A stretch of DNA of 64,000 bases, taken from NCBI GenBank assembly GCA_031291305.1, contig JARLJH010000058.1, positions 210,116 through 274,115 of the forward strand, read 5' to 3'. Positions 5,410 through 57,837 of the stretch are shown piece by piece. The position numbers and the translations under genes are program-made. This DNA comes from Rhodoferax sp. Lineage in GTDB: Bacteria > Pseudomonadota > Gammaproteobacteria > Burkholderiales > Burkholderiaceae_C. The notes under the pieces are model-generated. The model had not been told where the DNA came from. It worked only from the letters and a program-made list of their open reading frames with translations, and did no database searches. Each line of letters opens with the position of its first letter. The first letter of the stretch is position 1.

Positions 5410-6369
5410 CTAACCCAGCTTGGTGCCAGGCTGTACCTCAGAACCGCGCAGAAAGTCCGCCACCGCCAGTCGTTTACCACCGGGGCGCTGCAACTCGGTC
5501 AGGTTAACTACAGAATCCATAGCTACTACTACAATACCTGTCTGGGCTACAGCCACTATTTGTCCACAAGTTAGACCCGCAGGCGGTGTTCCGTGCCCCA
5601 CACTGGCTGCCCACACCTTGAGCGACTCACCACCCAGCACCGTATTGGCACCCGGAAATGGATTGAAAGCCCGCACCCGACGGGTGATGGTGGTGGCTGT
5701 TTGCGCCCAATCAATGGCCGCTTCGACCTTGTCAACTTTGGCGGCGTAGGTCACGCCTTCGGCGGGCTGAGGTATCGGCTTGAGCTTGCCCTGCTGCATC
5801 TGCTGCAGTACCTGCACCATGAGTGAACCGCCAAGATCAGCCAGCTTGTCATGCAGGCTTCCTGTAGTGTCACTATCCAGAATGGGCAGCGCTTGAGCCA
5901 GCAGCATGTCACCGGTATCGAGTCCGGCATCCATCTGCATGATGGTGATGCCGGTTTGCGGGTCACCCGCTTCAACGGCCCGGTGGATGGGAGCAGCACC
6001 CCGCCAGCGCGGCAACAGCGACCCGTGAATATTGAAACAGCCTTGCAGTGGCAGGTCCAGCACCCATTGCGGCAAGATCAGCCCATAGGCAGCCACCACC
6101 ATGGCATCGGCCTGTGCCGCCTGCAGCGCAGTCCGTGCCGCCAGCGCGTCTTCGGGATACTTGCCGTCCAGCCGCAGGCTGCGCGGCTGCACCACGGTGA
6201 TGCCATGTTGCTGTGCGAGCTGTTTGACCGGAGAAGCGTGCAATTTGAGGCCGCGCCCGGCAGGCCGGTCTGGCTGCGTCAATACCAAGACAACCTCATG
6301 CCCGGCAGCCAGCAACTGTGACAGGGCAACCGCTGCGAATTCGGGCGTACCCGCAAATACCAGCTTCAA
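5410..6369 (-). CDS. fmt: Methionyl-tRNA formyltransferase
   Basis: Formylates the amino group of Met-tRNAfMet using 10-formyltetrahydrofolate so that translation can start. The 319-residue protein has the N-terminal [13 protein letters not shown], the folate-site region [15 protein letters not shown] with the SLLP motif, and the C-terminal tRNA-binding domain with [12 protein letters not shown]. Its ATG overlaps the stop of def (ATGA), giving translational coupling with the enzyme that removes the formyl group. A repeat-like segment lies in the C-terminal domain at 5514-5562 without changing the expected length. Confidence 0.97.
5514..5562 (-). repeat. Possible copy of the dispersed repeat inside fmt
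   Basis: On the minus strand the segment reads TGGCTGTAGCCCAGACAGG ... GTAGCTATGG, resembling the repeat unit TTGGCTTCCAGCCCAGATA ... ACAGCTATTC seen at 48455-48509. It encodes [13 protein letters not shown] in the same frame as other same-direction copies. The protein keeps the usual family length here, so it may be an old or partial copy, or chance similarity. Confidence 0.4.
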
Positions 6370-6887
6370 ACCTTGTTGGCAACGCGACCTTCGCGCTGCG
6401 CTTTCTGCAGTTTGCTCTTGATACGATTGCGCTTAAGCGGCGACAGGTATTCCACGAACACTTTACCCATCAGGTGATCCATTTCATGTTGAATACATAC
6501 TGACAACAAGCCCTCGGCCTCGATCAGGCGTGCCTTGCCGTCGCGGTCAAGCGCTTCAACTTTGATGGTGTCGTGGCGCTGCACGCCGTCATAAATGCCC
6601 GGCACAGACAGACAGCCCTCTTCATTAAGATGCTTTTCTGGACTAGTCCAAAGCATCTTGGGGTTAATCAGCACCAGCGGATCGTCACGGCCCTCGGAGA
6701 TATCCATGACAATCAGGCGTTCGTGCACATCAATCTGGGTCGCCGCCAGGCCCACCCCGTTGGCTTCGTACATGGTTTCCAGCATGTCAGCGATCAGGGT
6801 CTGGATGCGTTCGTCAACCACCGTCACGGGTTTGGCCACCGTGTGCAGTCGGGTGTCGGGATAGCGAATAATTGAGAGTAATGCCAT
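6366..6887 (-). CDS. def: Peptide deformylase
   Basis: Removes the N-formyl group from new proteins. The 173-residue protein has all three metal-site motifs: [18 protein letters not shown] (cysteine ligand) and [12 protein letters not shown] (HExxH). The stop overlaps the start of fmt by four bases, so the two genes are co-translated. The next gene on the other side is divergent, and the 130-base gap at 6888-7017 must hold promoters in both directions. Confidence 0.97.
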
Positions 6888-7017
6888 AGTCAGTGTTCAG
6901 AGATGTCGCTATTTTCGCTATTTTTTTGGCTGGCCACACATTCACCGAGCGAGAATCGTTGTCCAATCAAGGGCTTGGGCGCAAAATCTCACGCGACACA
7001 ATAGGGTAAGAAACACG

Positions 7018-8226
7018 ATGTCTAAATTTTTTCTTCAGGCAACTCTCCCCCCACTGGCTTGCGCCGCGCTGGCGTGTGGCTTGTTGGCCAGCGGGATTGC
7101 CCATGCGCAGAAATACCCCATCACTGCCCAACAACGAGCCACCGCCGAGCAGGTGGCTCAGAGCGGAGTGGCACTGAGCGAACTCAGAGCTGATGCACCG
7201 TCGCGCTACACCATCAAACGCGGCGACACGCTGTGGGCGATTTCCGGGATGTATTTGAAATCACCGTGGCGCTGGCCTGAGTTGTGGGGCATGAACCTGG
7301 CTGAAATCAAAAACCCGCATTTGATTTACCCAGGGCAAACACTGTATCTGGACACCTCCAGCGGGCGGGCACGGCTGACCCTGCAGCCAGGTGGCGAGGA
7401 GATTCCCACTGTCAGAATGTCACCACGCACACGAAGTGAGGCCCTACCGGATGACGCGCTGCCAACTCTAAAAAATCAGTGGATCGAACCATTCCTGTCA
7501 GAAGCCATCGTGTTGGACGAGCAGGGACTCAAGGATGCGCCACGCATCGTGGCCACGCTGGACGACAGGGTTCTGCTCACCCGTGGAGATCGTGCTTACG
7601 CACGCAGCAATTCATCTGAAGAGTTGATCGATGACCCGCACCAGAAACAGAAGACTTACCGTGTTTTTCGCGATGCGACGCCCTTAAAAGATCCTTTGAC
7701 GGGTGATGTACTCGGATACGAGGCGCAATTCGTGGGCAAGGCCACGCTCGCTCGTAGCGAAACCACCCAACCAACGACCAACAAGGATGGCAGCACCGAG
7801 CAAAGCATCGTGCCAGCCACGATAGACATCATATTGGCCAAAGAGGAAATGCGGGTGGGCGACCGGCTGGTCCTCGAGCCGACACAGCAGCTACGAAGCT
7901 ATGTACCGCACGCGCCTAGCAACTCTGTCGATGCGCGCATCGTCTCTATTTACGGCAGCGCTGTTATCAATGCAGCCCAAAATCAGGTCGTTGTTATCAA
8001 CCGTGGTAAACGAGATGGCATGGAGGTTGGCGACGTATTAGCCATCATGAAAGCTGGAAAACAAATGGTCGATAAAACCGACACTCAATTGCCATCCATA
8101 AAGCTTCCCGATGAGCGCAACGGCTTGCTAATGGTGTTCAGCACTTTCGAAAAATTGTCTTATGGTTTGGTCCTGGACATCACCAGCGGTGTCCAGGTGG
8201 GTGATCATTTGATCAACCCGCAATAA
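7018..8226 (+). CDS. Exported LysM-domain protein
   Basis: A 402-residue protein with a signal peptide (hydrophobic core PLACAALACGLLASG, cleavage probably after AHA near residue 30) and one LysM peptidoglycan-binding domain at about 64-112 (YTIKRGDTLWAISGMYL ... NPHLIYPGQTLYL). The remaining 290 residues have no motif I can name. A gene of this kind commonly sits between def/fmt and dprA in Burkholderiales. It probably acts at the cell wall in the periplasm; its exact role is unknown. It ends 27 bases before dprA and is probably co-transcribed with it. Confidence 0.88.
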   Translation: MSKFFLQATLPPLACAALACGLLASGIAHAQKYPITAQQRATAEQVAQSGVALSELRADAPSRYTIKRGDTLWAISGMYLKSPWRWPELWGMNLAEIKNPHLIYPGQTLYLDTSSGRARLTLQPGGEEIPTVRMSPRTRSEALPDDALPTLKNQWIEPFLSEAIVLDEQGLKDAPRIVATLDDRVLLTRGDRAYARSNSSEELIDDPHQKQKTYRVFRDATPLKDPLTGDVLGYEAQFVGKATLARSETTQPTTNKDGSTEQSIVPATIDIILAKEEMRVGDRLVLEPTQQLRSYVPHAPSNSVDARIVSIYGSAVINAAQNQVVVINRGKRDGMEVGDVLAIMKAGKQMVDKTDTQLPSIKLPDERNGLLMVFSTFEKLSYGLVLDITSGVQVGDHLINPQ

Positions 8227-8253
8227 GACACCCTCATTCCGCCCTCACATTTA

Positions 8254-9498
8254 TTGTCATCCATCGCGAACCTCGTGGAACGTGACGAACTGGCGGCTTG
8301 GTTGCGACTGACGCTGACACCAGGCGTTGGCAACAGCAGTGCGCGCAAGCTGCTAGCGGCCTTTGGGCTTCCGCAAACCATTTTTGAACAATCTACCGCT
8401 GCCTTGCAGCAGGTCGTCAGCACGACTCAGGCACTGGCACTGAGAACCGAACCCGCAGAACTTACCGATCTCATACAAGTGACCTGGGCCTGGCTGAACC
8501 ATGACTCGGATCAGGGCATATGCCGTCAGGTGGCCACACTGGGCGACCCGTTGTACCCGCAAGCTTTGCTGAACCTGGACGACCCACCGCTGATGCTGTA
8601 CCTGCTGGGCAGGGGAAGTTTTATGCAATATGACCCTCTAGCCCTTAAAAATAAAGGGTATTCAACTCCTATTTCAATAGCAAATGATTTCTTCATAAAC
8701 CCCGTATCCAGCCTAGCCATTGTCGGCAGCCGAAATCCGACGCCGCAAGGTGCTGCCAATGCGCGACTGTTTGCCAAATCGTTTGCACAGGCTGGGTTAA
8801 CAGTGGTCAGTGGTCTTGCGCTCGGCATTGATGGTGCCGCCCATGAAGGCGCGCTCGACGGTGCCAGCGACAGTCACCAGGTCGTCACTGTCGCTGTGGT
8901 TGGCACCGGCCTGGATCGCGTCTATCCCAAAGCGCACCACGACCTGGCGCACCGGATAGCGCTGCACGGATTGCTGGTGAGCGAATACCCGCTGGGTACG
9001 CCACCGCTCACGGCCAATTTTCCCAAGCGCAACCGACTCATTGCCGGTTTGGCACAGGGTACGTTGGTGGTGGAGGCAGCGCCCAAATCTGGATCGCTGA
9101 TCACCGCGAGGTTGACGGCCGAACAAGGCCGTGACGTGTTTGCCATTCCGGGTTCGATTCATGCCGCCCAGTCTCGCGGCTGCCATGCGCTGATCAAGCA
9201 AGGCGCCAAACTGGTGGAGTCTGCGCAGGATGTGCTGGAAGAGTTGTCCTGGCCTGGCAGGCTTTCATCCGTTTCAAATTCAATAGCTGATAGCCCAGTT
9301 GTCAAAAGAACTGAAGACATCTTCCTCCAGGGTGGACAACTGTTGGATGGTCTAGGATTCGATCCAGTCGGGCTTGAGGCCCTGCAAGCCCGCACAGGTC
9401 TGGAGACAGCCGACTTGCAGGCGCAGTTGATGGGACTTGAGCTTGATGGCTTGGTGGCGCGTTTGCCCGGTGGACTGTTTCAACGCCAGAAGGTCTGA
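8254..9498 (+). CDS. dprA: DNA-processing protein DprA (Smf) with a repeat-derived insertion
   Basis: Loads RecA on incoming single-stranded DNA during natural transformation. The 414-residue reading begins at a TTG (8254); a GTG at 8275 is an alternative and neither has a clear ribosome binding site. The Rossmann-like core is intact: SLAIVGSRNPTPQGAANAR near residue 152, VVSGLALGIDGAAHEGAL, and RDVFAIPGSIHAAQSRGC. A C-terminal winged-helix-like segment ends in LVARLPGGLF. Between YLLGRG and SLAIVGSR, where family members have only a few residues, there are about 24 extra residues (about 126-149). They are encoded by a copy of the dispersed repeat. A second partial copy lies near residues 340-350, in the linker before the C-terminal domain. 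Confidence 0.95.
   Translation: MSSIANLVERDELAAWLRLTLTPGVGNSSARKLLAAFGLPQTIFEQSTAALQQVVSTTQALALRTEPAELTDLIQVTWAWLNHDSDQGICRQVATLGDPLYPQALLNLDDPPLMLYLLGRGSFMQYDPLALKNKGYSTPISIANDFFINPVSSLAIVGSRNPTPQGAANARLFAKSFAQAGLTVVSGLALGIDGAAHEGALDGASDSHQVVTVAVVGTGLDRVYPKAHHDLAHRIALHGLLVSEYPLGTPPLTANFPKRNRLIAGLAQGTLVVEAAPKSGSLITARLTAEQGRDVFAIPGSIHAAQSRGCHALIKQGAKLVESAQDVLEELSWPGRLSSVSNSIADSPVVKRTEDIFLQGGQLLDGLGFDPVGLEALQARTGLETADLQAQLMGLELDGLVARLPGGLFQRQKV
8631..8681 (+). repeat. Dispersed repeat, in-frame insertion in dprA
   Basis: Contains CCTCTAGCCCTT, the internal hairpin CCCTT-AAAAAT-AAAGGG and the end TTTCAATAGC that define the repeat. It adds the stretch DPLALKNKGYSTPISIA to DprA just before the GSRNP motif, in the same direction and frame as the copies in the M48 protease and PglL-like genes. 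Confidence 0.8.
9271..9302 (-). repeat. Partial copy of the dispersed repeat in dprA
   Basis: TTTCAAATTCAATAGCTGATAGCCCAG carries the AATAGCT end of the repeat and part of the GCCC arm. The AATTCAATAGC piece also appears, inverted, at the edge of the copy in moaC. It lies in the linker before the DprA C-terminal domain and keeps the frame. Confidence 0.45.
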
Positions 9499-9551
9499 TT
9501 TCCAGTCCTGTTTTGCTGTTTGCGAAAAATGCGGCGCAGTATATTGAGGTC

Positions 9552-10028
9552 ATGTTTGAAGTCCTCGCATTTGTTTACGACAACTACCTTGACCTTGATG
9601 CATGCCCTGAGCTTCCGGTCTTGCATCGTACCTTGCACACCCTGGGTTTTGCCCCCCGCGAAGTGGAAACGGCCCTGCTGTGGCTTGAAGACCTCAAAAG
9701 TGCGGCGAACCGCCTGCCCATGCACCCAGTCGCTGAAAAACCAGCGCTCTCATCGACAGCCGCCATGCGTGCACTCACAAAGGCAGAGCTAGCCAGAATT
9801 GACGTAGCAGGCTGGGGGTTTCTGGCATTTCTGACATCGATTGGCAGTCTTGCCGACAATGAACTGGAACTGGTGATGGAGCGCGCCATGGCAACTCCTG
9901 GGGAACCGCTCAGCCTGAATGATCTGAAACTAATTGTGCTGATGGTTTTCTGGGGCCTTGCGCGTGAGCCCGATGCACTGGTCCTCGACGAACTGTGTGA
10001 CGACCACACCCATCGTCTGCTCAACTGA
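9552..10028 (+). CDS. smg: Smg/DUF494 family protein
   Basis: A 158-residue protein of the Smg (DUF494) family, found next to dprA in many proteobacteria; its function is not established. The family N-terminus MFEVLAFVYDNYLD sets the start at 9552, preceded by GAGGT; an upstream in-frame ATG at 9513 would add 13 unlikely residues. The C-terminus RLLN and the stop lie in one arm of a perfect 15-base inverted repeat shared with the opposing gene. It is probably co-transcribed with dprA, 53 bases upstream. Confidence 0.92.
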   Translation: MFEVLAFVYDNYLDLDACPELPVLHRTLHTLGFAPREVETALLWLEDLKSAANRLPMHPVAEKPALSSTAAMRALTKAELARIDVAGWGFLAFLTSIGSLADNELELVMERAMATPGEPLSLNDLKLIVLMVFWGLAREPDALVLDELCDDHTHRLLN

Positions 10029-10050
10029 GTACGGGTCAGTTGAGCAGACG
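10014..10050. terminator. Perfect inverted repeat spanning both convergent stop codons
   Basis: CGTCTGCTCAACTGA (10014-10028) and TCAGTTGAGCAGACG (10036-10050) are exact reverse complements round a 7-base loop. Each arm encodes the last residues R-L-L-N and the stop of its own gene (smg on plus, DUF1631 on minus). The hairpin is well placed to end transcription from both sides, but there is no long T tract on either side, so intrinsic termination is not certain. Confidence 0.7.
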
Positions 10051-12564
10051 CGCGGGGTTTGCCTGGATTTCGTCAAGCGCCGAGCGCGTCGCCCGGGCGG
10101 TCAAGGGTTCATCTTCCTGCGGCTCTAGCAAGCCCACCTGCAGGTAGGCCGCTAGGCGCGCCGTCTGCAACAAGTAGCTGTGCCCGACATTGTTGGCAAA
10201 CAGATGCAAATGCCCCAACGGGCTGCGCCAGACATACTGCACCTGTACAACGTTTGATTTGTAGTCCAAGGCAAACCACGAACCCAAAGCTAGGTCGCGC
10301 GCCCACTCCATCATCACCGCACTGGCCGTACCACCGCCTTCACTGACCACATCAAGGTCTGTGGCTTCAAAACCCAGCAATTCTTCAATGTTCTCGGTAT
10401 CCAGCGGCAACTCTTCGCCACCGTCGTCACTGATGTAGTCGTCGAGCTCAGCCAGTCGCTGCGCCATCGCCTGAATTTGCTCGTCGGCAATCGCCTCGGT
10501 CTTGGCCATGAAAGCGTCTGCCAGGGTGTCGCTAATGATCTTGATATGCGTCTCCTGCACGGAACGACCGACGCCCAAAAGGTTCATGCCAGCACGCAAA
10601 TTCTGCAACAAGCCTGACAGACCACTGATCACCTTAGCGCGATCAGCACGATTGGGTTTGGCGCTTGCAGCCCAAATAAGATCAGTCGCCGTCTTCTTGA
10701 GTCGCAGCGTTTCCTCATGCTGCTTGCCCTGACGCACCGTAGACACGGCCAGTACCTCCGCCCAGACCTTGAACAGGAAGGAGCGGATTTCGTCACGCAC
10801 CGGCATGTCCTTGAGTTGGTCGCGCAGCTCGATGGTGTACTGGATGGCCAATGTTTCTTTCTGCTCCAGTTGCTCGGCCACGCCCAACACTTTCTGCGCT
10901 GAGGGCTTCTTGGCAAGGTGTTTTTTCAGGAACTGTTGGAACTCTTCATACACCCGCTTATAAACGCGGTCACCCGTTTCCGGGTACTGTTCAACAACCT
11001 GCACAACGCGCTTGATCTCGGTAACAAGATCATCGGCGTTGATGCCGCTGGAATCGAACCCCAGCACGCAGGAACCCATGTGGTCAATCAACTGACGCGC
11101 CGGATGGTCAAGTCTGTTGAAAAAGTCTGGGTCTGCCAAGGCAACACGCAGCACCGGCATCTGCAACCGCGCGAACCAGACCCGAGCGCCGGGCGGAATG
11201 CGGTCTTCCTGCAAGATGGACTGAAACATCAGGGCCACCAGCTCAATAATGGCCTTTTCGTTGTCTGTTTCAGCCTTCCCCTTGAGTTCGGACGATTGTT
11301 GGCGCAATTCGGTAGCCATCTGTGCCACTGCAACCGGATACACAATCTGTCCGCCCCCCTCTGAGGTAGCAAACTGGACATCAGGCAGACGTGGCTGCTG
11401 GGCAATAGCCATCATCAGCGGCACCGACGGACCGTGATAAGCCACCTGTGGTCCACCAGCTCCTCCGTAAAAAGCCGCAGCGGGCTCCATCATTCCAGAT
11501 TGGCCCAGCACCTGCCCAGGGTATCCTTGCCCAGAGTAGCCACCGCTGCCAGCTGGCACGAAGCTGCCGCCAGACGACACAAAACCTTCCCCCGAAGAAA
11601 TAAACCCTGCGGGCCCGCTGGCTGTACCGCGCGGGGCACGCCCGCCGCCAGCCGGTGGACTTTCAAGAAACGCGCCGCTTAGCAGCCTGCCCACTTGCTC
11701 CATGAGGCCTTGCGCACGGCCATAAAATCCGCCTGCACGACCTGTCGGAAAACCAATACGCCCCCCCCCCATACCGCCACGATGACTTTGCCCCACGGGC
11801 GGCGAGCCTGCGGACTGGTCCGACGAACGGCGCTGCTGCGGTGGTTCTGCAACAGGTGCCTGTGTCTGCGGCATTTGCGCATAGGGTTCATTGGCATCTT
11901 CAAAAGATGCGGCACTGGTCTTAGCACCAAATTCAATCACAGGCATAACACCGAGCTTGATCAACTCATCATTACAGACGGTGTAGGCCTTTTCCAGTTG
12001 TTCATTGAGGTAGCGCTGTACCACCCCGATAACCAGTTGCCAGGCTTCACGCGGCAAACCGGCACTCTCCCATTGCTCCACCAAATGGAGAAACAACACC
12101 TCTGGATGCACGATATCGCGCGAGCTCAAAGCCTGGTTGTTGTTGAGATACTTGAGCCGTTTGCGCAGGTCATTGACCGGCTCAGCACCTTTTTCCATCA
12201 GATTCAAAGCCATGCGCGAGGCAATGATCTTGTTCTCCACCACGTCGGTGCCAACCAGCTCAAAATCTTTGGAAAGCCCGCCAACGATGGAAGGCAAGAC
12301 AGACTTTTTTTCGGGAGCCAGCGACTCCTGCCAAGCTCTTAGGGTGCCATCCTGCCAGCGTGTTTTATTTCGCTGGTAGGACATCCAGGCATCACGACGC
12401 GACTGCATCTCTCGCGAAGGAGCTGCCTCGTCCATCGCTTGGGTCAAACGCTCCTGCACCTTGTCCAGCAAAGACTTCAAGGATGCCCCTGCCTCGAACA
12501 CCAGGCGCTGACGCACCCGCGCAGACATCTGCATCTGTGGGGATGTCTGCTGGGAAGCTGTCAT
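10036..12564 (-). CDS. DUF1631 family protein
   Basis: An 842-residue protein of the DUF1631 family, common in beta- and gammaproteobacteria and of unknown function. The N-terminal 230 residues are mostly helical with RQRLVFEAGASLKSLLDKVQ and WMSYQRNKTRWQDGTLR. Residues about 245-375 are a Gly/Pro/Ser-rich, probably disordered linker. The remaining 450 residues form a second conserved helical region, ending with a small basic-aromatic segment (VQYVWRSPLGHLHLFAN). No signal peptide or membrane segment is seen, so it is probably cytoplasmic. It ends in the inverted repeat shared with smg and lies 15 bases downstream of the next gene region. Confidence 0.85.
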   Translation of the reverse strand: MTASQQTSPQMQMSARVRQRLVFEAGASLKSLLDKVQERLTQAMDEAAPSREMQSRRDAWMSYQRNKTRWQDGTLRAWQESLAPEKKSVLPSIVGGLSKDFELVGTDVVENKIIASRMALNLMEKGAEPVNDLRKRLKYLNNNQALSSRDIVHPEVLFLHLVEQWESAGLPREAWQLVIGVVQRYLNEQLEKAYTVCNDELIKLGVMPVIEFGAKTSAASFEDANEPYAQMPQTQAPVAEPPQQRRSSDQSAGSPPVGQSHRGGMGGGRIGFPTGRAGGFYGRAQGLMEQVGRLLSGAFLESPPAGGGRAPRGTASGPAGFISSGEGFVSSGGSFVPAGSGGYSGQGYPGQVLGQSGMMEPAAAFYGGAGGPQVAYHGPSVPLMMAIAQQPRLPDVQFATSEGGGQIVYPVAVAQMATELRQQSSELKGKAETDNEKAIIELVALMFQSILQEDRIPPGARVWFARLQMPVLRVALADPDFFNRLDHPARQLIDHMGSCVLGFDSSGINADDLVTEIKRVVQVVEQYPETGDRVYKRVYEEFQQFLKKHLAKKPSAQKVLGVAEQLEQKETLAIQYTIELRDQLKDMPVRDEIRSFLFKVWAEVLAVSTVRQGKQHEETLRLKKTATDLIWAASAKPNRADRAKVISGLSGLLQNLRAGMNLLGVGRSVQETHIKIISDTLADAFMAKTEAIADEQIQAMAQRLAELDDYISDDGGEELPLDTENIEELLGFEATDLDVVSEGGGTASAVMMEWARDLALGSWFALDYKSNVVQVQYVWRSPLGHLHLFANNVGHSYLLQTARLAAYLQVGLLEPQEDEPLTARATRSALDEIQANPARLLN

Positions 12565-12579
12565 GATTGAGACGACGGG

Positions 12580-13536: not shown

Positions 13537-13568
13537 TGAAATGTTCCCTTTATCTAGTTTTCAATGAA

Positions 13569-20807: not shown

Positions 20808-20964
20808 CGTGTGAGTTCTCTTGGAATGGGGTGGCAACAGTCGTGTGATTGGCTCTGTTGAACGCCAGCAAGTGTGCCAGCGGTCCGAGACACAGTGTAG
20901 GCAAGCTGGCGCGGACATGCACGCCTCGTCCAGGTGACGTCAGTACTGGCGCAGGTTTTCAAAC

Positions 20965-21019
20965 AAAATTGGCCTCTAGCCTTTATACATAAAGGGCTTA
21001 CAGCTATGTATTTTGAATA
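20965..21019 (+). repeat. Dispersed repeat, intergenic reference copy
   Basis: A near-complete copy: AAAATTGGCCTCTAGCC, the hairpin arms CCTTTAT-ACATAAAGG, TTACAGCTAT and TTTTGAATA. It lies in the 420-base non-coding stretch 20808-21227 between the divergent oxidoreductase and pentitol operon. It is the copy closest in sequence to the one that forms the M48 protease signal peptide. Confidence 0.85.
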
Positions 21020-22541: not shown

Positions 22542-22543
22542 AC

Positions 22544-27771: not shown

Positions 27772-28731
27772 ATGTCCCACCTGCCACGTCAACTCAAACC
27801 CGAACTCGAACAGGATTTCGTCCGCTCGACAGATTTGGGCTACGAGGCACCCGACGAGTCCGGGTTCATCCGTTGCCTGTCGCATGGTTTTCCCACGCCA
27901 CTGGCGCGCTGGCATCACCATGACGAGTACGAGTTCCATCTGATCACCGCCACCTCGGGCAAAGTGTTTGTGGGTGACTGGATCGGGCACTTCCGCCCCG
28001 GCCACGTGGTACTGACCGGCCCACGCCTGCCACACAACTGGGTCAGCACTGACGTGCCCGAAGGCGGCGTGGCCGAGCGTGATCTGGTCATCCAGTTTTT
28101 GCATGGTCCGATTGAAACCGGCTGCCAATCCATACCAGAGCTGCGTGAATTGCTACCTATTTTAGAGCGCGCCAAACATGGGATCGAGTTTTTTGACATC
28201 TACCCGCAAGCGGTAGCGCACTGGCAGCGCATCAAGTCCCACAAGGGGCTGGCGCGCTTTGCGGCGTTTTGTGATCTGATGAGCGACTTGGCGCAATGTA
28301 CCGATTACCGTCTGTTGTCCAACACCCAGATGCAGAGCATGGACAGCGACACCCAGCTTGATCAGATCAACGCCTTGATCAGCCGCATCAGCGAAAACCT
28401 GTCTGAGCCCGTCTCGGCTGCAGACATGGCACGCGAGCTGGCCATGAGCGAAAGCGCCTTTTCGCGCTTCTTCCGCCGGGCCACCGGCAATACGTTCACC
28501 GACTTTGTCAACCATGTTCGCGTCAGTCGCGCCTGCCAGTTGCTGATGGAGTCGGACTTGCTGATCACCCACATTGGCTACCAGGTGGGCTTCAACAACA
28601 TCGCCAATTTCAACCGGCGCTTTCTGGACATCAAAGGCATGACGCCCAGCGACTACCGTCGCCAAGCCGCCAGCCGCTTTGGCCTGAAAGCCGCAGCCCA
28701 AGCACAACATCATCATGTCTCTCGGCATTGA
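27772..28731 (+). CDS. AraC-family transcriptional activator of the pentitol operon
   Basis: A 319-residue regulator resembling MtlR of Pseudomonas. The N-terminal cupin-like sensing domain includes RWHHHDEYEFHLITATSG and GHVVLTGPRLPHNW. The C-terminal 100 residues hold two helix-turn-helix units (MARELAMSESAFSRFFRRAT and ITHIGYQVGFNNIANFNRRF). It lies inside the operon, 78 bases after dalD, so it is probably expressed with it. The likely target is the pair of direct repeats at 21105-21135. The xylB relic starts within its last codons. Confidence 0.92.
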   Translation: MSHLPRQLKPELEQDFVRSTDLGYEAPDESGFIRCLSHGFPTPLARWHHHDEYEFHLITATSGKVFVGDWIGHFRPGHVVLTGPRLPHNWVSTDVPEGGVAERDLVIQFLHGPIETGCQSIPELRELLPILERAKHGIEFFDIYPQAVAHWQRIKSHKGLARFAAFCDLMSDLAQCTDYRLLSNTQMQSMDSDTQLDQINALISRISENLSEPVSAADMARELAMSESAFSRFFRRATGNTFTDFVNHVRVSRACQLLMESDLLITHIGYQVGFNNIANFNRRFLDIKGMTPSDYRRQAASRFGLKAAAQAQHHHVSRH

Positions 28732-31312: not shown

Positions 31313-31324
31313 CTATTTACAAGC

Positions 31325-31380
31325 CAAATTGGCCTTAAGCCCTTATTTCACCTGGGCTAGAAGCTATAGAAGATGTAGCT
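31325..31380 (+). repeat. Dispersed repeat, intergenic copy
   Basis: CAAATTGGCCTTAAGCCCTTATTTCACC, then GGGCTAGAAGCTATAGAAGATGTAGC. The second arm shows the inverted pair GCTAT...ATGTAGC. It lies between the terminator and the TSUP gene start, so it is in that gene's promoter or leader region. Confidence 0.75.
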
Positions 31381-46915: not shown

Positions 46916-48511
46916 GGCCTGCAGCTCGCGCTGGCGCGTGTCGATGATGGACGCATCAATGTGGTCGGCCGTGCTGCCCGCTGCTTCATTCGCCCGCATC
47001 AGGTCTTGCGCCGCACGCAGGCGGTCAACGGCACCGGTGTAGTCCAGCCGCGCGGCCTGCGCCTCGGCCTGTGCGCGTAAAGCCCGCAAGGGCTGACTCT
47101 GCGCTGTATACAGACTGCCCAGGGTCTGCCAGGCCAACGCGTCATGCGGCTGGCTGACCAGCCAGGTCTGCAGACTTTGTCCCACCGCATTGAGCATGCT
47201 GGCCTGATTGAGCTGCAGCGCCACCTGCGCCTGCAGCATCAACTGCGGGCGGCGCATGTCAGCGGCGTGCACGACTTGGGCACCCGTGATGCCCAGCCGC
47301 GCCGCCAGCGCGGTGAGCTGCGCCGGTGACAAGTCACGCGCAGCCAGATCAATCTCGGCACCTAGCCAGCGCACCGGCGCTGCGGCGCTGGGGTCCGCTG
47401 CTGCCAGGGTTTGCAGACGCGCCAGATCCTGCCGCGCCTGCGCCACCTCGCGCAGCTGACTGGATGCCATTGCCGCACCATACAGGGTCCCCACCTGCAG
47501 CGCCACCGGCAGCGACTGCAAGGCTGGGTCGTCGGCCTGGGCTTGCCAGGTCCGCAAGGCATCGACACCGGTGTTGGACAGCACCTTGGCGCGTGTGGAC
47601 ATCATGGCGTGCAGCAAGGTCGGCGTACCGGCCACCGGGTGGGGTGCACCCAGCGGCAGACGCGCCTCCATGTCGGCGATGCGCTCGGTGGTCAATGGAT
47701 GGGAACGCAAATAGGGGTAGCCGCCAGCATCATTGAGCCGGGAAGCTTGCTGCAGTTTGTCAAACATGGTGACAAATCCTTGCCCTTTAAACCCAGCCTG
47801 AGTCATCACACCAAAGCCGATGCGGTCGGCCTCACGTTCCATGCCGCGCGAAAAATTGAGCTGGCTTTGCGCTGCCACGGCCTGCCCGCCCACCATCAAC
47901 GCACTGCCCGCGTCGGGGTTCTTGCTGGCTGCCAGCGCGCCCAGAATCATCGCGCCAATCATCCAGGGTGTTTGCGCACTATCTTTGGCGATGAGTCGCG
48001 AGATATGCCGCTGCGTGACGTGGCTGAGCTCATGGCCCAGCACGGAGGCCAGCTCGTCACGGTTGCTGACAACCGCAATCAAACCAAGATTGACCCCCAG
48101 ATAACCACCCGGCAGGGCAAAGGCGTTAACCGTGCGATCCCGCCCGAGCATGATCTGCCAGGCAAATCGCTCATCGATCTCGGGCGTCAACTCGCCACGC
48201 TGCCGGGCGGCGGCCAGCAAGGGCAGCCAGATGCTCTGCACATAGTCGGCCAGCACCGGATCATCCAGATAGTCGGGGTCGCGAAACAGTTCACGTGCAA
48301 TGTTGTCACCCAGACGGCGCTCATCAGCGCTGCCCATGGCGCTGCCGTCGCCCAACTGCGGCAACGGTGATGCCGCGCTGTCCGCTGCAGCTGTGGTGCT
48401 GGTTGCGGACACAGACTGGGCGCTCAGGCTGCCTGACAAGCACGCGCAAGCAGATATAAAAAGAATAGCTGTACGCCCTTTATGTATCTGGGCTGGAAGC
48501 CAATTTTTCAT
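46886..48511 (-). CDS. BepA-like M48 family metalloprotease, exported
   Basis: A periplasmic zinc protease and chaperone-like protein for outer-membrane quality control. The 541-residue protein has the HExxH motif in VLGHELSHVTQRH near residue 160, the third zinc ligand in GMEREADRIGFGVM, and a C-terminal TPR-like helical region (about 300-530), as in E. coli BepA. I chose the ATG at 48511, which has AGGAA five bases before it; an earlier ATG at 48532 lacks a site. The signal peptide MKNWLPAQIHKGRTAILFIS... is encoded, from codon 2 on, by a copy of the dispersed repeat. The gene's 3' end overlaps the opposing YvlD-like gene by 30 bases. Confidence 0.93.
   Translation of the reverse strand: MKNWLPAQIHKGRTAILFISACACLSGSLSAQSVSATSTTAAADSAASPLPQLGDGSAMGSADERRLGDNIARELFRDPDYLDDPVLADYVQSIWLPLLAAARQRGELTPEIDERFAWQIMLGRDRTVNAFALPGGYLGVNLGLIAVVSNRDELASVLGHELSHVTQRHISRLIAKDSAQTPWMIGAMILGALAASKNPDAGSALMVGGQAVAAQSQLNFSRGMEREADRIGFGVMTQAGFKGQGFVTMFDKLQQASRLNDAGGYPYLRSHPLTTERIADMEARLPLGAPHPVAGTPTLLHAMMSTRAKVLSNTGVDALRTWQAQADDPALQSLPVALQVGTLYGAAMASSQLREVAQARQDLARLQTLAAADPSAAAPVRWLGAEIDLAARDLSPAQLTALAARLGITGAQVVHAADMRRPQLMLQAQVALQLNQASMLNAVGQSLQTWLVSQPHDALAWQTLGSLYTAQSQPLRALRAQAEAQAARLDYTGAVDRLRAAQDLMRANEAAGSTADHIDASIIDTRQRELQALLKQQALNH
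48455..48509 (-). repeat. Dispersed repeat forming the M48 protease signal peptide
   Basis: Minus-strand AAAATTGGCTTCCAGCCCAG, then ATACATAAAGGGC-G-TACAGCTATTC. It shares the 13-base run ATACATAAAGGGC and TACAGCTAT with the intergenic copy at 20965-21019. It begins at the second codon and supplies the positively charged and first hydrophobic part of the leader. Confidence 0.85.
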
Positions 48512-48651
48512 AAATTTCCTGGGTGACATCAAGTGGGGTGATGGTAGAGTAATCGCGCGTCTGCCGTTGGCAAACCCGTATGATGCCAGTCACGCGTAAA
48601 GGTTCTGTCAAGCCACTGTGGCCCACCCCCACTCTTTTGAAACGATTTGTC

Positions 48652-49161
48652 ATGAGCACCCTCACCCATTTTGACGACCAGGGCCAGGCCCACATGGTCG
48701 ATGTCGCGGCCAAAGCTGCCACCCACCGCATTGGCGTGGCGGGCGGACGCATCGAAATGCAACCAGCCACATTAGCGCTGATCGAGTCCGGTACGGCTAA
48801 AAAAGGCGACGTGCTGGGCATCGCCCGCATTGCCGGCATCATGGCCGCCAAAAAGACCAGCGATCTCATCCCCTTGTGCCACCCGCTGGCGCTCACCCGT
48901 GTCGCTATTGAATTTGAAGTTATTCACGCAGATGCGACAAGGGCTAGCGCCATTTATTGCACAGCAACCGTGGAAACCGTTGGCCCCACCGGCGTGGAGA
49001 TGGAAGCGCTGACTGCGCTACAGGTGGCGCTGCTCACCATTTACGACATGTGCAAAGCGGTGGACCGTGGCATGGTCATCACCGACTGCAGGCTGCTGGA
49101 AAAACACGGGGGCAAGTCGGGGAGCTTTGTGGCGAGCAGGCATGACCTACGGGCGGGCTGA
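48652..49161 (+). CDS. moaC: Cyclic pyranopterin monophosphate synthase
   Basis: Second enzyme of molybdenum cofactor synthesis; with MoaA it turns GTP into cyclic pyranopterin monophosphate. The 169-residue protein has [42 protein letters not shown] (the active-site helix; split here as [11 protein letters not shown] and [10 protein letters not shown]) and KHGGKSGSF at the end. Residues about 85-102 ([18 protein letters not shown]) are a few residues longer than I expect and overlap a repeat copy. The start at 48652 is the family's; no other moa gene is nearby. The 3' end overlaps the opposing ligase gene by 15 bases. Confidence 0.95.
48904..48958 (-). repeat. Dispersed repeat inside moaC
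   Basis: Minus strand: AAATGGCGCTAGCCCTTGTC ... GTGAATAACTTC, ending AAATTCAATAGC, matching the unit over its whole length including the terminal AATAGC. It encodes a surface loop region in MoaC and keeps the frame. Confidence 0.65.
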
Positions 49162-50658: not shown

Positions 50659-50815
50659 GGTTTCTGGATTGGGTCAGTGCGGGAGCCCGACGGTGCGATA
50701 TTTTCGCCGGGAGTTGTGGTGCATAAACAGATACCCTTCACATCAAGCTGCTTGCCAGCAATCACACTGGGCATGCTTGTATCCGAGGCCGCTCCTGTTC
50801 ATGAATAATAGGCCC

Positions 50816-52120: not shown

Positions 52121-52145
52121 CTGTGTCAGCCGGGACCGCCGCACT

Positions 52146-52955: not shown

Positions 52956-54177
52956 CGTAGCTATTTCGGTCAAAAATCTGACCAAAACTTACCGGATTTT
53001 TGGCCACCCCGGCGACCGGATCAAACAGGCGCTGACTTTTGGGCAAAAGCGGTACCACAAGGAATTTACCGCGCTCAACGACGTGTCGTTCGAGATCAAA
53101 AAGGGTGAAACGGTTGGCATCATCGGCCGCAACGGGTCTGGCAAAAGCACGCTGCTGCAGTTGATTTGCGGGATTTTGAAACCGACGTCGGGGTCTGTGG
53201 ATGTGAATGGGCGGATATCTGCGCTGTTGGAACTGGGTGCTGGGTTTAATCCTGAATTTACCGGGCGGGAGAATGTGTATTTTCAGGGGGCGGTGATGGG
53301 TTTCACTAAAGCGGAAATGGATGCGCGTTTTGATGACATTGCTGCCTTTGCCGATATTGGTGAATTTATAGAACAACCTGTACGAACTTACTCGAGTGGC
53401 ATGTATATGCGGTTGGCTTTTTCGGTGGCCATTAGTTCAGAACCTGAAATCCTAATCGTAGACGAGGCATTTAGCGTGGGTGATGTTGTCTTCCAGCACA
53501 AGTCGAAGAAACGAATTCTTCAACTTAGAGATGCTGGAACCAGTCTACTGCTCGTATCTCATGATAGGAATGCCGTCGCTGCAATGTGCCATCGTTGCAT
53601 TCTTCTTGATAAAGGACACTTGGCGATGGACGCAATGGCGTTGGACGTCATGGACTACTATTACGCAACAATAGCCGCCAACGGTGGAGTGGCAGTTCGG
53701 CAAACGCACTCTGACTTTGGGAAAGCACAGACTCTTTCTGGTTCAGGAGAGGCTGTCGTGGAGAGTATTCGCCTGCTGGATAATGCGAACTATGAAATTG
53801 AGGTCTTAGTTCCGGGTCAGGAAGTCACTCTTGAGTTTCACGTCAAAAGCAAAGAGGAAATACCCCGTTTAATTTTAGGGTTCGCCATCCGTGATCAGTT
53901 TGGTCAAGAGATTTACGGTATTAATACGAAGAGCTACGATCAGGAACTGAAAAATGTTTCAAAGGGCAGCAATTATATTTTCCGATTTTCCTTTTTTGCC
54001 AATATTGGGATTGGAACATATTCAATATCAACAGCATTAACAAGCACCAATGATCATCTTGAAAATAACTATCAAAGTTGTGATCTTGCTTACTTCTTTT
54101 CTGTCCATAACACTGGACAGAGATTTTTTGGCGGTGTGGCATGGCTCAACCCAATTCTTGAAATTCACCGCTTTTGA
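52945..54177 (+). CDS. wzt: ABC exporter ATPase Wzt with C-terminal glycan-binding domain
   Basis: Powers export and, through its C-terminal domain, recognises the modified end of the finished chain. The 410-residue protein has Walker A GRNGSGKST near residue 66, signature YSSGMYMRLAFSVAI near 151 and Walker B ILIVDEAFSVGD near 171. Residues about 250-410 form a beta-rich Wzt_C-type domain. The first 130 codons have the GC-rich composition of the upstream genes; from about 53340 the DNA is clearly more AT-rich. This suggests that the specificity-determining part was exchanged with a foreign sequence. It overlaps wzm by 11 bases. Confidence 0.92.
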   Translation: MHSDVAISVKNLTKTYRIFGHPGDRIKQALTFGQKRYHKEFTALNDVSFEIKKGETVGIIGRNGSGKSTLLQLICGILKPTSGSVDVNGRISALLELGAGFNPEFTGRENVYFQGAVMGFTKAEMDARFDDIAAFADIGEFIEQPVRTYSSGMYMRLAFSVAISSEPEILIVDEAFSVGDVVFQHKSKKRILQLRDAGTSLLLVSHDRNAVAAMCHRCILLDKGHLAMDAMALDVMDYYYATIAANGGVAVRQTHSDFGKAQTLSGSGEAVVESIRLLDNANYEIEVLVPGQEVTLEFHVKSKEEIPRLILGFAIRDQFGQEIYGINTKSYDQELKNVSKGSNYIFRFSFFANIGIGTYSISTALTSTNDHLENNYQSCDLAYFFSVHNTGQRFFGGVAWLNPILEIHRF

Positions 54178-54213
54178 ATCCAATATATTCAATTTGATGA
54201 TTAGGTGGTCTAA

Positions 54214-55101
54214 ATGACGATAAAGAATAAATTATGTCCTATGTGCCGAAATGGAGAATCACTGCCTTTTGGCCAACAAGAATGGCAGGTGTATGGAGAT
54301 GTCTACCACTTGTTGAGATGTCAAACCTGCGGTTCTATTTTCACGGTTCCACCACCGGAAGATGACACGCTAGCGAAACTATACAAAACCTCCTTCGACT
54401 TCCGCTGGTACCAGGACCACTACGATGCCAAGCTTAGAGATGGCCGCCTGCGCATTCAAGAATTAGGGGCGAAGTTAGGAAAGCGAGTGCTTGATTTCGG
54501 CGGCGGTGTAGGCTATTTCTCCGCTGCGGCCAGGGCAGTTGGACTGCACAGCGTAACCTACGACCCATGGGTAAAAACGAATACTGAAACTGCGGAGACA
54601 AACGCCTGGGACAGCGTCGTCGCCTTGCATGTTCTCGAACACAGCAATAACCCCGCGGGCTTATTACGCACGATGTCTGGTTACCTGAAAGAAAACGGTA
54701 ACTTGGTTTTGGCCGTCCCCAATGCCTCAGGCCTCGGTTATCGTACACACGGCATGTCTTGGGTATGGTCACAGCCACCGCTTATTCATATCTTCCACTT
54801 CACTGCCGATGGCCTGAACGCACTTCTTGCGGAGACGGGTTTTGAAGTTATATCCACCAGTTACCATGATCGTTGGGATGCCAATTACCATGCCGATGTG
54901 CTCCATTCCAGTCGTCAGCGACTGCTTGATTCACTTTGGGGTCTGAAGCCTCTCAATCGCTTCGGGCTATATCGGCGTGCCGTTGCTACCGTCGTTAGCG
55001 TTCTGCGCCGCCGATCACTGCAACGATCCAACAACGCTCAAATACCTGAAGCAGATCGAGCAGAGCTGCTGATCATCGCGCGCAAACGCGCTACAAAATG
55101 A
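54214..55101 (+). CDS. SAM-dependent methyltransferase with N-terminal zinc ribbon
   Basis: A 295-residue class I methyltransferase. A likely zinc ribbon (CPMC ... CQTC, residues 8-38) precedes the SAM fold with motif I RVLDFGGGVGYFSAA near 90 and ALHVLEHSNNPAG. In ABC-dependent O-antigen systems, methylation of the non-reducing end stops chain growth and is the signal read by Wzt; lying directly after wzt makes that role likely. AT-rich composition, like the end of wzt. Its stop overlaps the next start (ATGA). Confidence 0.85.
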   Translation: MTIKNKLCPMCRNGESLPFGQQEWQVYGDVYHLLRCQTCGSIFTVPPPEDDTLAKLYKTSFDFRWYQDHYDAKLRDGRLRIQELGAKLGKRVLDFGGGVGYFSAAARAVGLHSVTYDPWVKTNTETAETNAWDSVVALHVLEHSNNPAGLLRTMSGYLKENGNLVLAVPNASGLGYRTHGMSWVWSQPPLIHIFHFTADGLNALLAETGFEVISTSYHDRWDANYHADVLHSSRQRLLDSLWGLKPLNRFGLYRRAVATVVSVLRRRSLQRSNNAQIPEADRAELLIIARKRATK

Positions 55102-56792
55102 CAGCGAAAACTGTTATCGCTTGGCTCACTCGCCATACGGCACCCGATTTGCGAAAAGGGCTCCCACATGACTGGCAGTGCATAGAGTTTTGCATTTCGA
55201 AAACCAGTCTTTCCGACACAGTTCTGCCAGAATCCTGGGCCGCGACTAACGGCCGCTATGTCCACGAACTGTTTGTGCGCGTTCGGGAGCGATTCGCCGC
55301 CACATCAGTTCTCATTTGCAACCCAGCTTTTGAATTCGACAAACTAGCGTTCCTCAAACTGTTGACTTACCTTGATTCGCACGATATCCAGCCTGCAAGC
55401 GCCACCGTCTTCTCAGCAAGTAAAGACGTACCTGTTGCTTATTTATTCCCGGCCGGAATAGACGTCGATTTCCGACTCAGTTTTCTGTCCACGCTAAGTG
55501 CAGATCTGGACCAACGCCTGCTCTCCCGTCTTTACGGGCAACCTTTCGAAAAAACGATGCTGCCGTGGAAAAAGGCACCAGGCAGATTGATGCGACCGCA
55601 CACCTGCCAGGTCGAAGATGTTTACAAGTGGATATCCCAAAGAGCTGAGGAAGCATTGTCCGTAAATGCAAACGCGTCTATCCTGGGATTTAACCCCCAC
55701 CACGCAGGGGATGTACTGTTCGCCTGTTTGGCCGCATCAAGTACAGATCACAAACTCGACGGGCTAATCGTCAATGAGGTCTATGCGGATATCGCCACCG
55801 ACTGTATGCCGAAGCAAAAGCTGTCGATTCTGAAAGGAGGCTGCCCCCACAGAAACGGTTGGATGATTAGCGACGAAGCGTATTTTTTGCAGGTTAAGTC
55901 ACTTTTACCAGATGGTTGCATTCCTTTGTACATGCGAGCGAACGGCGACTACAACACGACCTACTTCCATTTAATCGACCATTTTGCGTTTGCGATAGGT
56001 GCAAGCCCCCGCCACCCCAGTCAATTGTTGTGGCACAACCTGCCTCCAAGATCGCGTAGCAACGGTGTGGAGTTAGCGGGCAAACGGATTCTGCTGCACT
56101 TCGATGCCGGTTGGCCACTCAAGATATACCCTGCAAGGGAACAGAATGAGTTAATTGAGATGCTGTCTCGAACTGGCAACAAGATTACCGTGTTGGGAAA
56201 GCAAAATGCAGATCATGGTCGCTACCAGGAAGTTGCTTTTGACGGGTACCGAACATTCAAGGATTTACTGTCGACTCAAGATGCCATGGTGGGGATGGAT
56301 TCATTTCCTGTTCACCTGGCCGTCCATCGGTTGGGTATCCCCGCAATCACACTGTTTGGTCCCACTCGGCCAGCGAATTCGAACGCGCGGTCTGGCCCAT
56401 CCTATGCATGTCTTGAGCGCGGTCTGCCTTGCAACCCCTGTTATGCACTAACAGTTTGTGGTCGCGATGGCGGCAGAACTTGCGCCAACTTTGCCGCACC
56501 GGTCGATGTTTTTGAAGCACTGTCTGCAGTGGTGTGCGGTCGAGAAACACCGAGCCAACATGACTCCAGTCAAGTACCACAGTTGGCCGGGCAAACCCAG
56601 ACAAATACTGACGGGTTGCGCTATGGATTGCGCATCGCGCTGCTTAAAGAGTATCTGCGACCGCAAAGCTACTTAAATTCAGCGATTGTTTTGGAGCTGG
56701 CTCATGCTTTACAGGCTTCGCTACAACACGATTCCCCTCGGATGACTTGGTTCAAAATCAAACGATTCTTTCGCCGTCGACTAAGAATTTAG
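55098..56792 (+). CDS. GT9-like glycosyltransferase with a long uncharacterised N-terminal region
   Basis: A 564-residue protein. Residues about 190-480 resemble heptosyltransferase-type (GT9) enzymes: ILGFNPHHAGDVLFACLAA, RILLHFDAGWPLKIYP, and the C-terminal nucleotide site AMVGMDSFPVHLAVHRLGIP with ITLFGPTRPANS. The 190 residues before this and about 80 after it have no family I recognise. A Cys-rich part (CNPCYALTVCGRDGGRTC) follows the GT motif. It is translationally coupled to the methyltransferase gene. The donor sugar is unknown. Confidence 0.7.
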   Translation: MTAKTVIAWLTRHTAPDLRKGLPHDWQCIEFCISKTSLSDTVLPESWAATNGRYVHELFVRVRERFAATSVLICNPAFEFDKLAFLKLLTYLDSHDIQPASATVFSASKDVPVAYLFPAGIDVDFRLSFLSTLSADLDQRLLSRLYGQPFEKTMLPWKKAPGRLMRPHTCQVEDVYKWISQRAEEALSVNANASILGFNPHHAGDVLFACLAASSTDHKLDGLIVNEVYADIATDCMPKQKLSILKGGCPHRNGWMISDEAYFLQVKSLLPDGCIPLYMRANGDYNTTYFHLIDHFAFAIGASPRHPSQLLWHNLPPRSRSNGVELAGKRILLHFDAGWPLKIYPAREQNELIEMLSRTGNKITVLGKQNADHGRYQEVAFDGYRTFKDLLSTQDAMVGMDSFPVHLAVHRLGIPAITLFGPTRPANSNARSGPSYACLERGLPCNPCYALTVCGRDGGRTCANFAAPVDVFEALSAVVCGRETPSQHDSSQVPQLAGQTQTNTDGLRYGLRIALLKEYLRPQSYLNSAIVLELAHALQASLQHDSPRMTWFKIKRFFRRRLRI

Positions 56793-56817
56793 CTTTGGCA
56801 CCACTGCGCATCAAAGC

Positions 56818-57837
56818 TCATTGCAATATCGGGAGACCATGTCGCCACAGCATGCGCAGTTTGTGCGGATAGCAATCGAAAGCGGAAAAAAAATCGGCGC
56901 TGGTGATGCGGCGGCTGTTTTGCGCCGAGAAGCGGTTCGCACGCAATTCCCTGCTGTGCCGCCATAGAGCGCTCAATACCGGTAGATAAATACGCTGCAG
57001 GTAACTGCCATTCAGATGTAGAAGCGATAGTGCAGCGCCCTCCAGCAGTAGCAACACCAAATGGAGTGGCACCAGAAGCATGGCCAAGGGTGCAGGAAAA
57101 GTGATCATCATGACAAAAGTTTTATTGCGCTCCGACAAGACTCGCCGGTAGAAGGTGGTGGCAAGTCGCCCAGCGGTAACCTTATTCCCCCCAAAACTCT
57201 TCCCCTGCCAATGCCGGTACCCCGACACCGCCAGCGCCCGCACCGCATACCCCGCCAACCTTGCCCGGCAACACAAATACATGTCCTCGGCAATCGACCC
57301 AAACCATTCCGGGAATCCTTCCAGTTCATCCCACAGGGTTTTGGGAATCCACAGGCAAGCGCCAATCACCATGGCCACATCGGCACGATTCGGATTCAGA
57401 TTGGGAACCGGGTTGTAAAACGGGTCCAGCAAGCAGCCCCGGTCAACCAGTGCACCCGTTGTCGCGTCGTATTGCGGCAGGGTCAGGATTGCGGGTTGAC
57501 CTAATTTGGTCGCCTCCTGCAGCAACGCTTGCAGCGCATCTGGGTGCAACGCAGCATCATTGTTAAGTAGCAAAAGAAATTGACCTCTAGCCCTCGTCAC
57601 CATTCGATTGTTTGCTATACAAAATCCAACGTTAACGTCACTTTCAATCAACACGACATCCGGATAGTGTTCGCGAATATGGGTGACAGAGCCATCGTTT
57701 GACGCATCGTCATGCAGCAAGATTTCGACGGGAATATTGCCTTGTTGCCTCAGTACCGACTTCAGGCAATCGTCAAGCACCGCCATGCCGTTGTAATTGG
57801 CAACACAGACTGAAACCACGGGTGGCTTTTGGTTCAT
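56818..57837 (-). CDS. Family 2 glycosyltransferase
   Basis: A 339-residue inverting glycosyltransferase with the GT-A start VSVCVANYNGMAVLDDCL, LLLLNNDAALHPDAL (the DxD-type motif reads NND), and EDMYLCCRARLAG near residue 195, followed by a membrane-associated C-terminus (ITFPAPLAMLLVPLHLVLLLL). The start at 57837 overlaps the upstream epimerase stop (ATGA). The gene converges with the GT9-like gene, 25 bases apart. It probably builds a rhamnan-like or other surface sugar chain; the donor is unknown. A repeat-like segment lies at 57572-57627. Confidence 0.85.
   Translation of the reverse strand: MNQKPPVVSVCVANYNGMAVLDDCLKSVLRQQGNIPVEILLHDDASNDGSVTHIREHYPDVVLIESDVNVGFCIANNRMVTRARGQFLLLLNNDAALHPDALQALLQEATKLGQPAILTLPQYDATTGALVDRGCLLDPFYNPVPNLNPNRADVAMVIGACLWIPKTLWDELEGFPEWFGSIAEDMYLCCRARLAGYAVRALAVSGYRHWQGKSFGGNKVTAGRLATTFYRRVLSERNKTFVMMITFPAPLAMLLVPLHLVLLLLEGAALSLLHLNGSYLQRIYLPVLSALWRHSRELRANRFSAQNSRRITSADFFSAFDCYPHKLRMLWRHGLPILQ
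57572..57627 (+). repeat. Possible dispersed repeat copy in the family 2 glycosyltransferase gene
   Basis: AAAAGAAATTGACCTCTAGC, then CCTCGTCACCATTCG and TTTGCTATACAAAATC. The first 20 bases match the unit well, the second half less. It codes, in reverse, for FCIANNRMVTRARGQFLLLL; the protein keeps family length. Confidence 0.45.

Follow-up and report, generated by a model that had tools for sequence, protein, structure and literature searches.

Neisseriaceae genomes carry DNA uptake sequences (DUS) up to 12 bp long. These sequences occur in very many copies, which concentrate where the core genome is permissive and are missing from genes of recent acquisition, and have been discussed as originating from biased uptake and recombination (PMC2397512); they come in species dialects (PMC3630211), and the uptake signal sequence (USS) of Pasteurellaceae has a 9-bp core (PMC1626085). 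Here we describe a dispersed, dyad-symmetric motif of about 63 bp in a window of 64,000 nucleotides (the whole stretch of DNA analyzed) from Rhodoferax sp. (assembly GCA_031291305.1, contig JARLJH010000058.1, positions 210,116 to 274,115, forward strand). The closest known behavior appears to be that of uptake sequences, though the size and symmetry of the motif fall outside that family. Like DUS and USS, it is present in hundreds to thousands of copies on both strands, most of them in a genome-specific dialect; unlike DUS (10-12 bp) and the USS core (9 bp), it is about five times longer, is symmetric and occurs once per 5 kb, and the likeness is one of genome sequence. We favor, at a probability of roughly 0.47, the reading that it is a genome-wide DNA recognition motif kept by a trans-acting factor, rather than a family of inserted elements.

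Three families of dispersed repeats offer further comparisons. Rickettsia palindromic elements (RPEs) are palindromic, genus-specific and found in frame in many unrelated genes (PMC10969869). The motif resembles them in being palindromic and in frame within genes, with two frames preferred, but an RPE is an insertion, about 150 bp long, that codes for a conserved peptide, and several motif sites show no insertion. Repetitive extragenic palindromic (REP) sequences and REPINs, which occur with REP-associated tyrosine transposases (RAYTs), are palindromic or repetitive, dispersed and high in copy number (PMC3733652, PMC3116915). REPs are extragenic palindromes, whereas copies of the motif pair poorly and show no link to the two Y1 transposase genes of the genome; nor were the near-identical recent copies of REPINs or miniature inverted-repeat transposable elements (MITEs) found among 166 copies of the motif. 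The dispersed repeat BRE of Bordetella and Comamonadaceae, some copies of which lie within coding sequences, is described as about 90 bp long, 69% GC in Bordetella, sometimes tandem and present in at most 29 copies per genome (PMC3110155), and we rejected it as the identity of the motif on length and GC content as so described.

Pieces of the motif have been known since 2017, when a survey of spaced motifs put forward two potentially novel pairs: GCTTAT(N)5AAGCG, from Acidovorax ebreus, and ATAGCT(N)22CAAAAG, from Polaromonas naphthalenivorans. They numbered 114 and 125 copies, mostly intergenic, and the survey doubted a role in transcription initiation and assigned no function; in A. ebreus 44 pairs lay between convergent genes versus 4 between divergent ones, and the highest pair count of any genome scanned was that of Rhodoferax ferrireducens (PMC5217627). 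By our comparison, the first pair is the center of the motif in its GCGC dialect and the second overlaps its right half. The survey treats them as separate pairs, and the accessible part of that account holds no full motif, coding use or dialects. In the open-access literature searched, neither the full motif nor its coding copies or dialects turned up, a text search with 14-mers of the motif returned a single unrelated paper, and within that literature the whole motif is apparently undescribed.

The original prediction, made from the window alone, was of a dispersed repeat of 50-60 bp. An 18-mer core has four matches with up to three mismatches in the window, against 0.05 expected, and a 16-mer core, allowing up to two mismatches, matches 171 times across the whole source genome (G000, a 4.98-Mb draft), 90 on one strand and 81 on the other, against one for a reversed-pattern control. 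Among named sequences, the dprA of this genome finds its best matches in Rhodoferax species. We iterated a weight matrix on 851,073 bases of this genome (contig C25, which includes the window, contig C1, and 400 of the 406 kb of contig C12), joining hits on the two strands into distinct copies and using the reversed sequence as control. At 16 bits or more this sample holds 166 distinct copies, or one per 5.1 kb. In the reversed sequence no hit reaches 16 bits, and strand-hits number 4 at 14 bits and 15 at 10 bits. Extrapolation from these 166 copies gives a genome-wide total of about 970, in round terms 1,000 sites that carry a long, structured motif, some of them within conserved enzymes. This excess over the control confirms the dispersed repeat and makes it a far larger phenomenon than the window alone conveys. 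Its predicted length needs revision: information drops to background about 18 bases to the left and 55 to the right of the first T of TTGGCC, leaving a conserved stretch of about 63 bp that fades near 73.

The consensus is dyad-symmetric over about 63 bp with fixed spacing: AAATtgGCCTCTAGCCCTTATnnnATAAGGGCTAGnAGCTATT. Despite this symmetry it has a polarity, with TTGGCC favored in the left arm and AGCTAT in the right, and AT-rich tracts at the center and about 20 bp to either side have GC-rich cores between them. The model contains about 40 bits of information (0.629 per position over 63 positions). No gap is needed to align any of the 30 seed copies or 80 model copies, and half-sites, counted by strand at an 11-bit threshold, keep the exact spacing in 185 pairs and depart from it in 5. 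A further 67 half-site pairs at the same threshold sit at one single offset, which we ascribe to self-matching of half-sites because each half is nearly palindromic.

A palindromic consensus would suit an RNA hairpin serving as terminator, attenuator or mRNA stabilizer at gene ends, as would a preference for convergent intervals and for gene 3′ ends (median distance 47 bp, versus 78 bp from 5′ ends). Yet the arms of individual copies pair on average at only 37-47% of 20 arm positions, near independence, 73 of 169 copies are wholly genic and read in either direction, and no Rfam family matches in the window at gathering scores. We give an RNA hairpin very little credence, and rejected both a hairpin RNA and a structured mobile palindrome on arm pairing and the lack of an Rfam match in the window. 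Covariation between the arms, compared with shuffles at 41 positions, has a largest z of 2.8 and a smallest of -2.6. Dyad symmetry without clear covariation suggests that the motif is recognized as double-stranded DNA by a symmetric protein.

The copies are diverged from one another and differ systematically between species. Among the 166 copies of the 851-kb sample, about one sixth of the genome, we found no young duplicates: across 13,695 pairs, identity over 63 columns peaks at 77.8%. In 400 kb of a complete relative (G010), 71 copies yield a consensus that differs on both arms. Position 12 is C in 96% of G000 copies and G in 70% of G010 copies, and position 26 is G in 60% and C in 99%, respectively. 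G000 uses the dialect GCCC/GGGC (its right arm in 60%), while G010 and five other genera mostly use GCGC/GCGC; the left arm in G151 is mixed, with 53% G. The five genera, sampled at 80 kb each, hold 15, 26, 13, 18 and 8 copies, with none in the reversed sequence. Around 60 orthologous genes, G000 and G010 have 15 and 16 copies, of which 12 are at the same place. At these 12 sites all eight differences at position 12 and all nine at position 26 run towards the G010 consensus, and orthologous copies carry species-specific changes on both arms.

The window itself contains 13 copies scoring at least 10 bits; a further match centered at 54007 (8.0 bits) was left out. Protein names come from Pfam and gene calls from a simple open reading frame (ORF) finder whose starts can be wrong, as at the M48 protease. 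The copies are listed by window coordinates, strand and host.

5507..5569, minus strand: copy in the C-terminal domain of fmt, on the gene strand; center 5538, 22.9 bits; at the same position in G010
8619..8681, plus strand: copy in the dprA linker, on the gene strand; center 8650, 48.0 bits; within the expanded linker
9271..9333, minus strand: second dprA copy, opposite to the gene; center 9302, 28.3 bits; median length unchanged
20957..21019, plus strand: intergenic copy between divergent genes; center 20988, 57.6 bits, the best in the window
28106..28168, plus strand: doubtful copy in a gene for an AraC-type regulator (Pfam HTH_18); center 28137, 14.0 bits
29005..29067, minus strand: intergenic copy upstream of the GMC oxidoreductase gene; center 29036, 20.5 bits
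29806..29868, minus strand: copy in the GMC oxidoreductase gene, opposite to the gene; center 29837, 40.5 bits; orthologous copy in G010
31317..31379, plus strand: intergenic copy after the GMC gene; center 31348, 56.3 bits; common to G010
48453..48515, minus strand: copy at the start of an M48 protease gene (Pfam M48); center 48484, 51.2 bits; the ORF-finder start lay downstream
48904..48966, minus strand: copy in moaC, opposite to the gene; center 48935, 27.9 bits
49523..49585, minus strand: copy in a PglL/Wzy-like gene (Pfam), on the gene strand; center 49554, 49.6 bits
51998..52060, minus strand: weak copy near the 3′ end of a UDP-sugar dehydrogenase gene (Pfam), opposite to the gene; center 52029, 17.9 bits
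57568..57630, plus strand: copy in a GT2 glycosyltransferase gene (Pfam), opposite to the gene; center 57599, 23.4 bits

A further copy, predicted in gatB, was not placed: gatB was absent among the ten genes scanned with Pfam, and no search was aimed at it. On our reading of the DNA, the M48 copy would encode the front of a putative signal peptide. In locus L003, near position 1501, a second copy apparently encodes the start of a putative signal peptide, as judged by eye.

Beyond the two genomes compared above, the motif occurs in many genera of its family, the Comamonadaceae as judged by named relatives. Searching 32 genomes with the model returned at least 150 matches in 20, 121-147 in 3, 4-20 in 8 and none in 1 (Ramlibacter), in a set that may count some genomes twice (G003/G197, G004/G189); the L125 genome, with 142 model matches, was not used as motif-free. 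A search of 150 genomes of the family, with a filter that loses weak matches, found at least 22 matches in 46, 1-13 in 24 and none in 80, and in a search filtered in this way across 150 genomes of the order those outside the family have at most one match each, five having one weak match. A palindromic, family-specific repeat lying in frame, with preferred frames, in many proteins is the part of the prediction that is upheld. Relatives that are poor in the motif, with 4-20 model matches, show an eroded dprA site: the linkers of L134, L141 and L143 keep their length and are GC-rich with no copy of 16 bits, and those of L136-L138 and L153 are shortened. In the dprA genes of Polaromonas (L184, L185 and L197), a copy is centered 42 bases upstream of the Rhodoferax one, without the long linker, and is probably an independent or shifted site.

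The original prediction explained genic copies by a mobile element that adds portable peptides to proteins. We compared lengths at nine sites using 30 or 80 loci per site, counting sequences of at least 20 bits as with the motif and those below 0 as without. Sequences of 0-20 bits were dropped (fmt 7, dprA 8 and, at its second copy, 10, aroE 1, murF 1, murE 6, trmJ 2, rlmI 3, cca 4), and at fmt 7 of 80 sequences aligned over too short a length and 2 lacked residues in the interval. Median length does not differ between sequences that have the motif and those that lack it at fmt (24 and 40 sequences, respectively), aroE (6 and 23), rlmI (8 and 19) and the second dprA copy (13 and 57), and is greater with the motif by one residue at murE (3 and 21) and by two at murF (2 and 27). 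At rlmI all 30 aligned sequences are gap-free in the interval, and residues are common to them on both sides of the footprint and inside it. Since orthologs without the motif are equal in median length, the motif has been written into native codons at fmt, aroE, rlmI and the second dprA copy. Overall, four of the nine sites show no change, two a change of one or two residues and three an expanded loop or linker, proportions that are not unbiased, as the sites were hand-picked, some because model spans hinted at extra or no extra length.

Synonymous recoding places the fit of genic copies in the DNA. In 64 of the 65 genic copies usable for this comparison (from 73), the real DNA scores above all 300 recodings; the copies were picked by score, and the comparison is no test against chance, for which the reversed-sequence control serves. 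We rejected the portable-peptide reading as a general rule on this result and on the equal medians: homologs without the motif keep the same length at fmt and rlmI, where the outcome named in advance as refuting the prediction has largely come about, and extra residues at the dprA linker, trmJ and cca are what remains of it. What looks in these genomes like a peptide inserted in frame can be native sequence altered under a constraint at the DNA level. Comparison with NCBIfam model spans, rough evidence in which unrelated indels also count, covered 40 host proteins, 26 of which matched over the copy and most of the model; in the other 14, a match was lacking or left the copy, or much of the model, uncovered. 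Host length minus model span lies between -5 and +8 in 15 of the 26, at +12 or more in 10 and at -20 in one. The GMC oxidoreductase has 26 residues beyond its model span, and the moaC host is 4-5 residues longer than the two best family models. Extra host length is common, though not general.

Reading frame and placement were assessed on the 169 copies of the sample scoring at least 14 bits. Wholly genic copies make up 73 of them, where random placement predicts 84%; 65 are intergenic and 31 partly genic, against 8% expected for each. A single fixed frame had been claimed for copies running with their genes and, for most of those running against them, a shared one. A strong bias is present, with 25 of 38 same-strand genic copies in the frame CCT-CTA-GCC-CTT and 26 of 35 opposite-strand copies in one common frame, but "always" does not hold, as 22 of the 73 use other frames. 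By eye, the peptides of the 51 copies in the two preferred frames are loosely similar. At the dprA site across relatives, residues drift while the positions of the DNA motif persist. What the copies have in common is a DNA motif, read in both directions and in several frames. Among intergenic intervals of at least 60 bp, a copy is held by 22 of 42 between convergent genes, 51 of 264 between co-directional genes and 7 of 80 between divergent genes.

Spacing and symmetry bear on a different account, in which the motif organizes the chromosome by binding an abundant protein of the nucleoid, of segregation or of topology, with direct selection for that role keeping each site. The dyad symmetry, the alternation of AT-rich tracts and GC-rich cores, the near-equal split of orientations (90 versus 81), the density of one site per 5 kb and the dialects on both arms would all suit such a protein. 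Against it, spacing between copies is close to random (coefficient of variation, CV, 1.04), and we argue that it would be hard for direct selection to write about 40 bits into some 1,000 redundant sites. We consider this account somewhat unlikely; it is the main rival. Spacings below 500 bp are scarce, at 3.7% versus 9.3% expected.

Six gaps longer than 14 kb in the sample are free of copies. The largest, with no copy of 16 bits, spans 42.9 kb (C12:218335-261216) and holds a Mu-like prophage; all 10 of the genes scanned there (of 47) match phage families, including terminase, portal, transposase and tail sheath. The second (C12:30947-57767, 26.8 kb) contains dsr-type sulfur genes and a Cas6 gene, with 10 of its 26 genes scanned. 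Set beside the absence of DUS from acquired genes, the two largest of the six gaps hold a prophage and dsr/Cas6 genes, while 42 stretches in viral contigs do carry the motif. Large acquired regions without the motif fit the chromosome-organizing account and models of uptake alike.

Several results weigh against a recognition motif written in place. At three of the sites the motif comes with extra residues: medians are 45 versus 28 residues (+17) at the dprA linker (22 with, 50 without), 49 versus 33 (+16) at trmJ (L283-L312; 9 with, 19 without), where loops are longer in motif-bearing genera, and 45 versus 39 (+6) at cca (10 with, 16 without). Ten of the 26 hosts are at least 12 residues over their model span, in a comparison with no motif-free control proteins, and at TlyA, one of the other 14 proteins, the NCBIfam match is broken beside the copy, as would suit insertion. 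The copies are slightly more alike than their columns account for, with nearest-neighbor identity at 0.656 against 0.627 in column shuffles and the best pair at 0.778 against 0.711, neither reached in any of 200 shuffles. A two-species alignment shows a small pairing excess between the arms (47.9% versus 46.5%), reached in 8 of 500 and 5 of 500 shuffles, and the preference for convergent intervals also suits a terminator-like role. Foreign DNA is not always motif-free, as 42 stretches in viral contigs L373-L414 match the GCGC-dialect pattern exactly. For neither leading reading did we find a recognizer, a recombination signal or a candidate protein, and known uptake sequences are short and are not known to be palindromic.

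Some of these points can be qualified. The pairing excess is ascribed mainly to the dialect column pair, being strongest where the species differ. In G010 the best-pair identity is reached in 26 of 200 column shuffles, and the copies show mild substructure without a young duplicate. Some of the viral matches lie near locus ends and may be host flanks, and the same contigs have no exact match to the GCCC-dialect pattern. The length of the dprA linker, taken alone, would support insertion, and trmJ and the dprA linker are the best candidates for true expansion together with the motif.

We regard a mobile palindromic element of the RPE, REPIN or MITE kind, once spread by insertion and since decayed, as decidedly improbable. 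Besides the three expanded sites and the longer hosts, preferred reading frames, the polarity of the element, the slight excess similarity between copies and the two Y1 transposase genes in the genome speak for it. The unchanged medians at fmt, aroE, rlmI and the second dprA copy, the 80 gap-free aligned copies, the lack of any pair above 78% identity, the parallel dialect change at orthologous sites and the 43-kb prophage-holding gap without a copy all speak against it. Of the two Y1 genes, one has a copy in the 1.5 kb of flanking sequence covered and the other none, about what density alone would give, and we rejected RAYT-driven mobility on this ground.

Together, gap-free geometry, the lack of young copies, origin in place, parallel dialect shifts and erosion point to a genome-wide recognition motif, its copies being many approximations of one recognition sequence, rather than to a mobile ancestor from which they recently descended. 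The motif would be read as double-stranded DNA by a dyad-symmetric DNA-binding factor acting in trans, whose presence would maintain it. Less certainly, sites may have been spread and kept by preferential uptake or recombination of motif-bearing DNA, by analogy with DUS and USS; this is our first choice because it needs no benefit at each site. Sites would settle where DNA changes most freely, in convergent intergenic DNA, loops and linkers.

More tentatively, the motif may be a mark of self-identity in Comamonadaceae: a 63-bp dyad-symmetric site rewritten into native genes and intergenic DNA, its dialect drifting on both arms together at some thousand places, and read by a putative two-fold symmetric factor that would govern uptake, recombination or organization of DNA as self. 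If this is true, sequence-biased genome evolution would gain, after Neisseria and Haemophilus, a third example of a very different kind. Whether drive or selection is at work can be tested by comparison, using the dialects and the eroded lineages.

Copies also occur on mobile DNA. Plasmid R751 (L415) carries a 44.9-bit copy centered at 2520 within a DUF1010 gene, beside dfrB3 in a class 1 integron. A plasmid search matched 62 records, and 24 of 25 among the matches listed (Klebsiella, Salmonella, E. coli and others) cover the same 44 bases. This suggests that the DUF1010 gene of R751 derives from a motif-bearing Comamonadaceae genome, and the motif might mark a Comamonadaceae origin of mobile genes.

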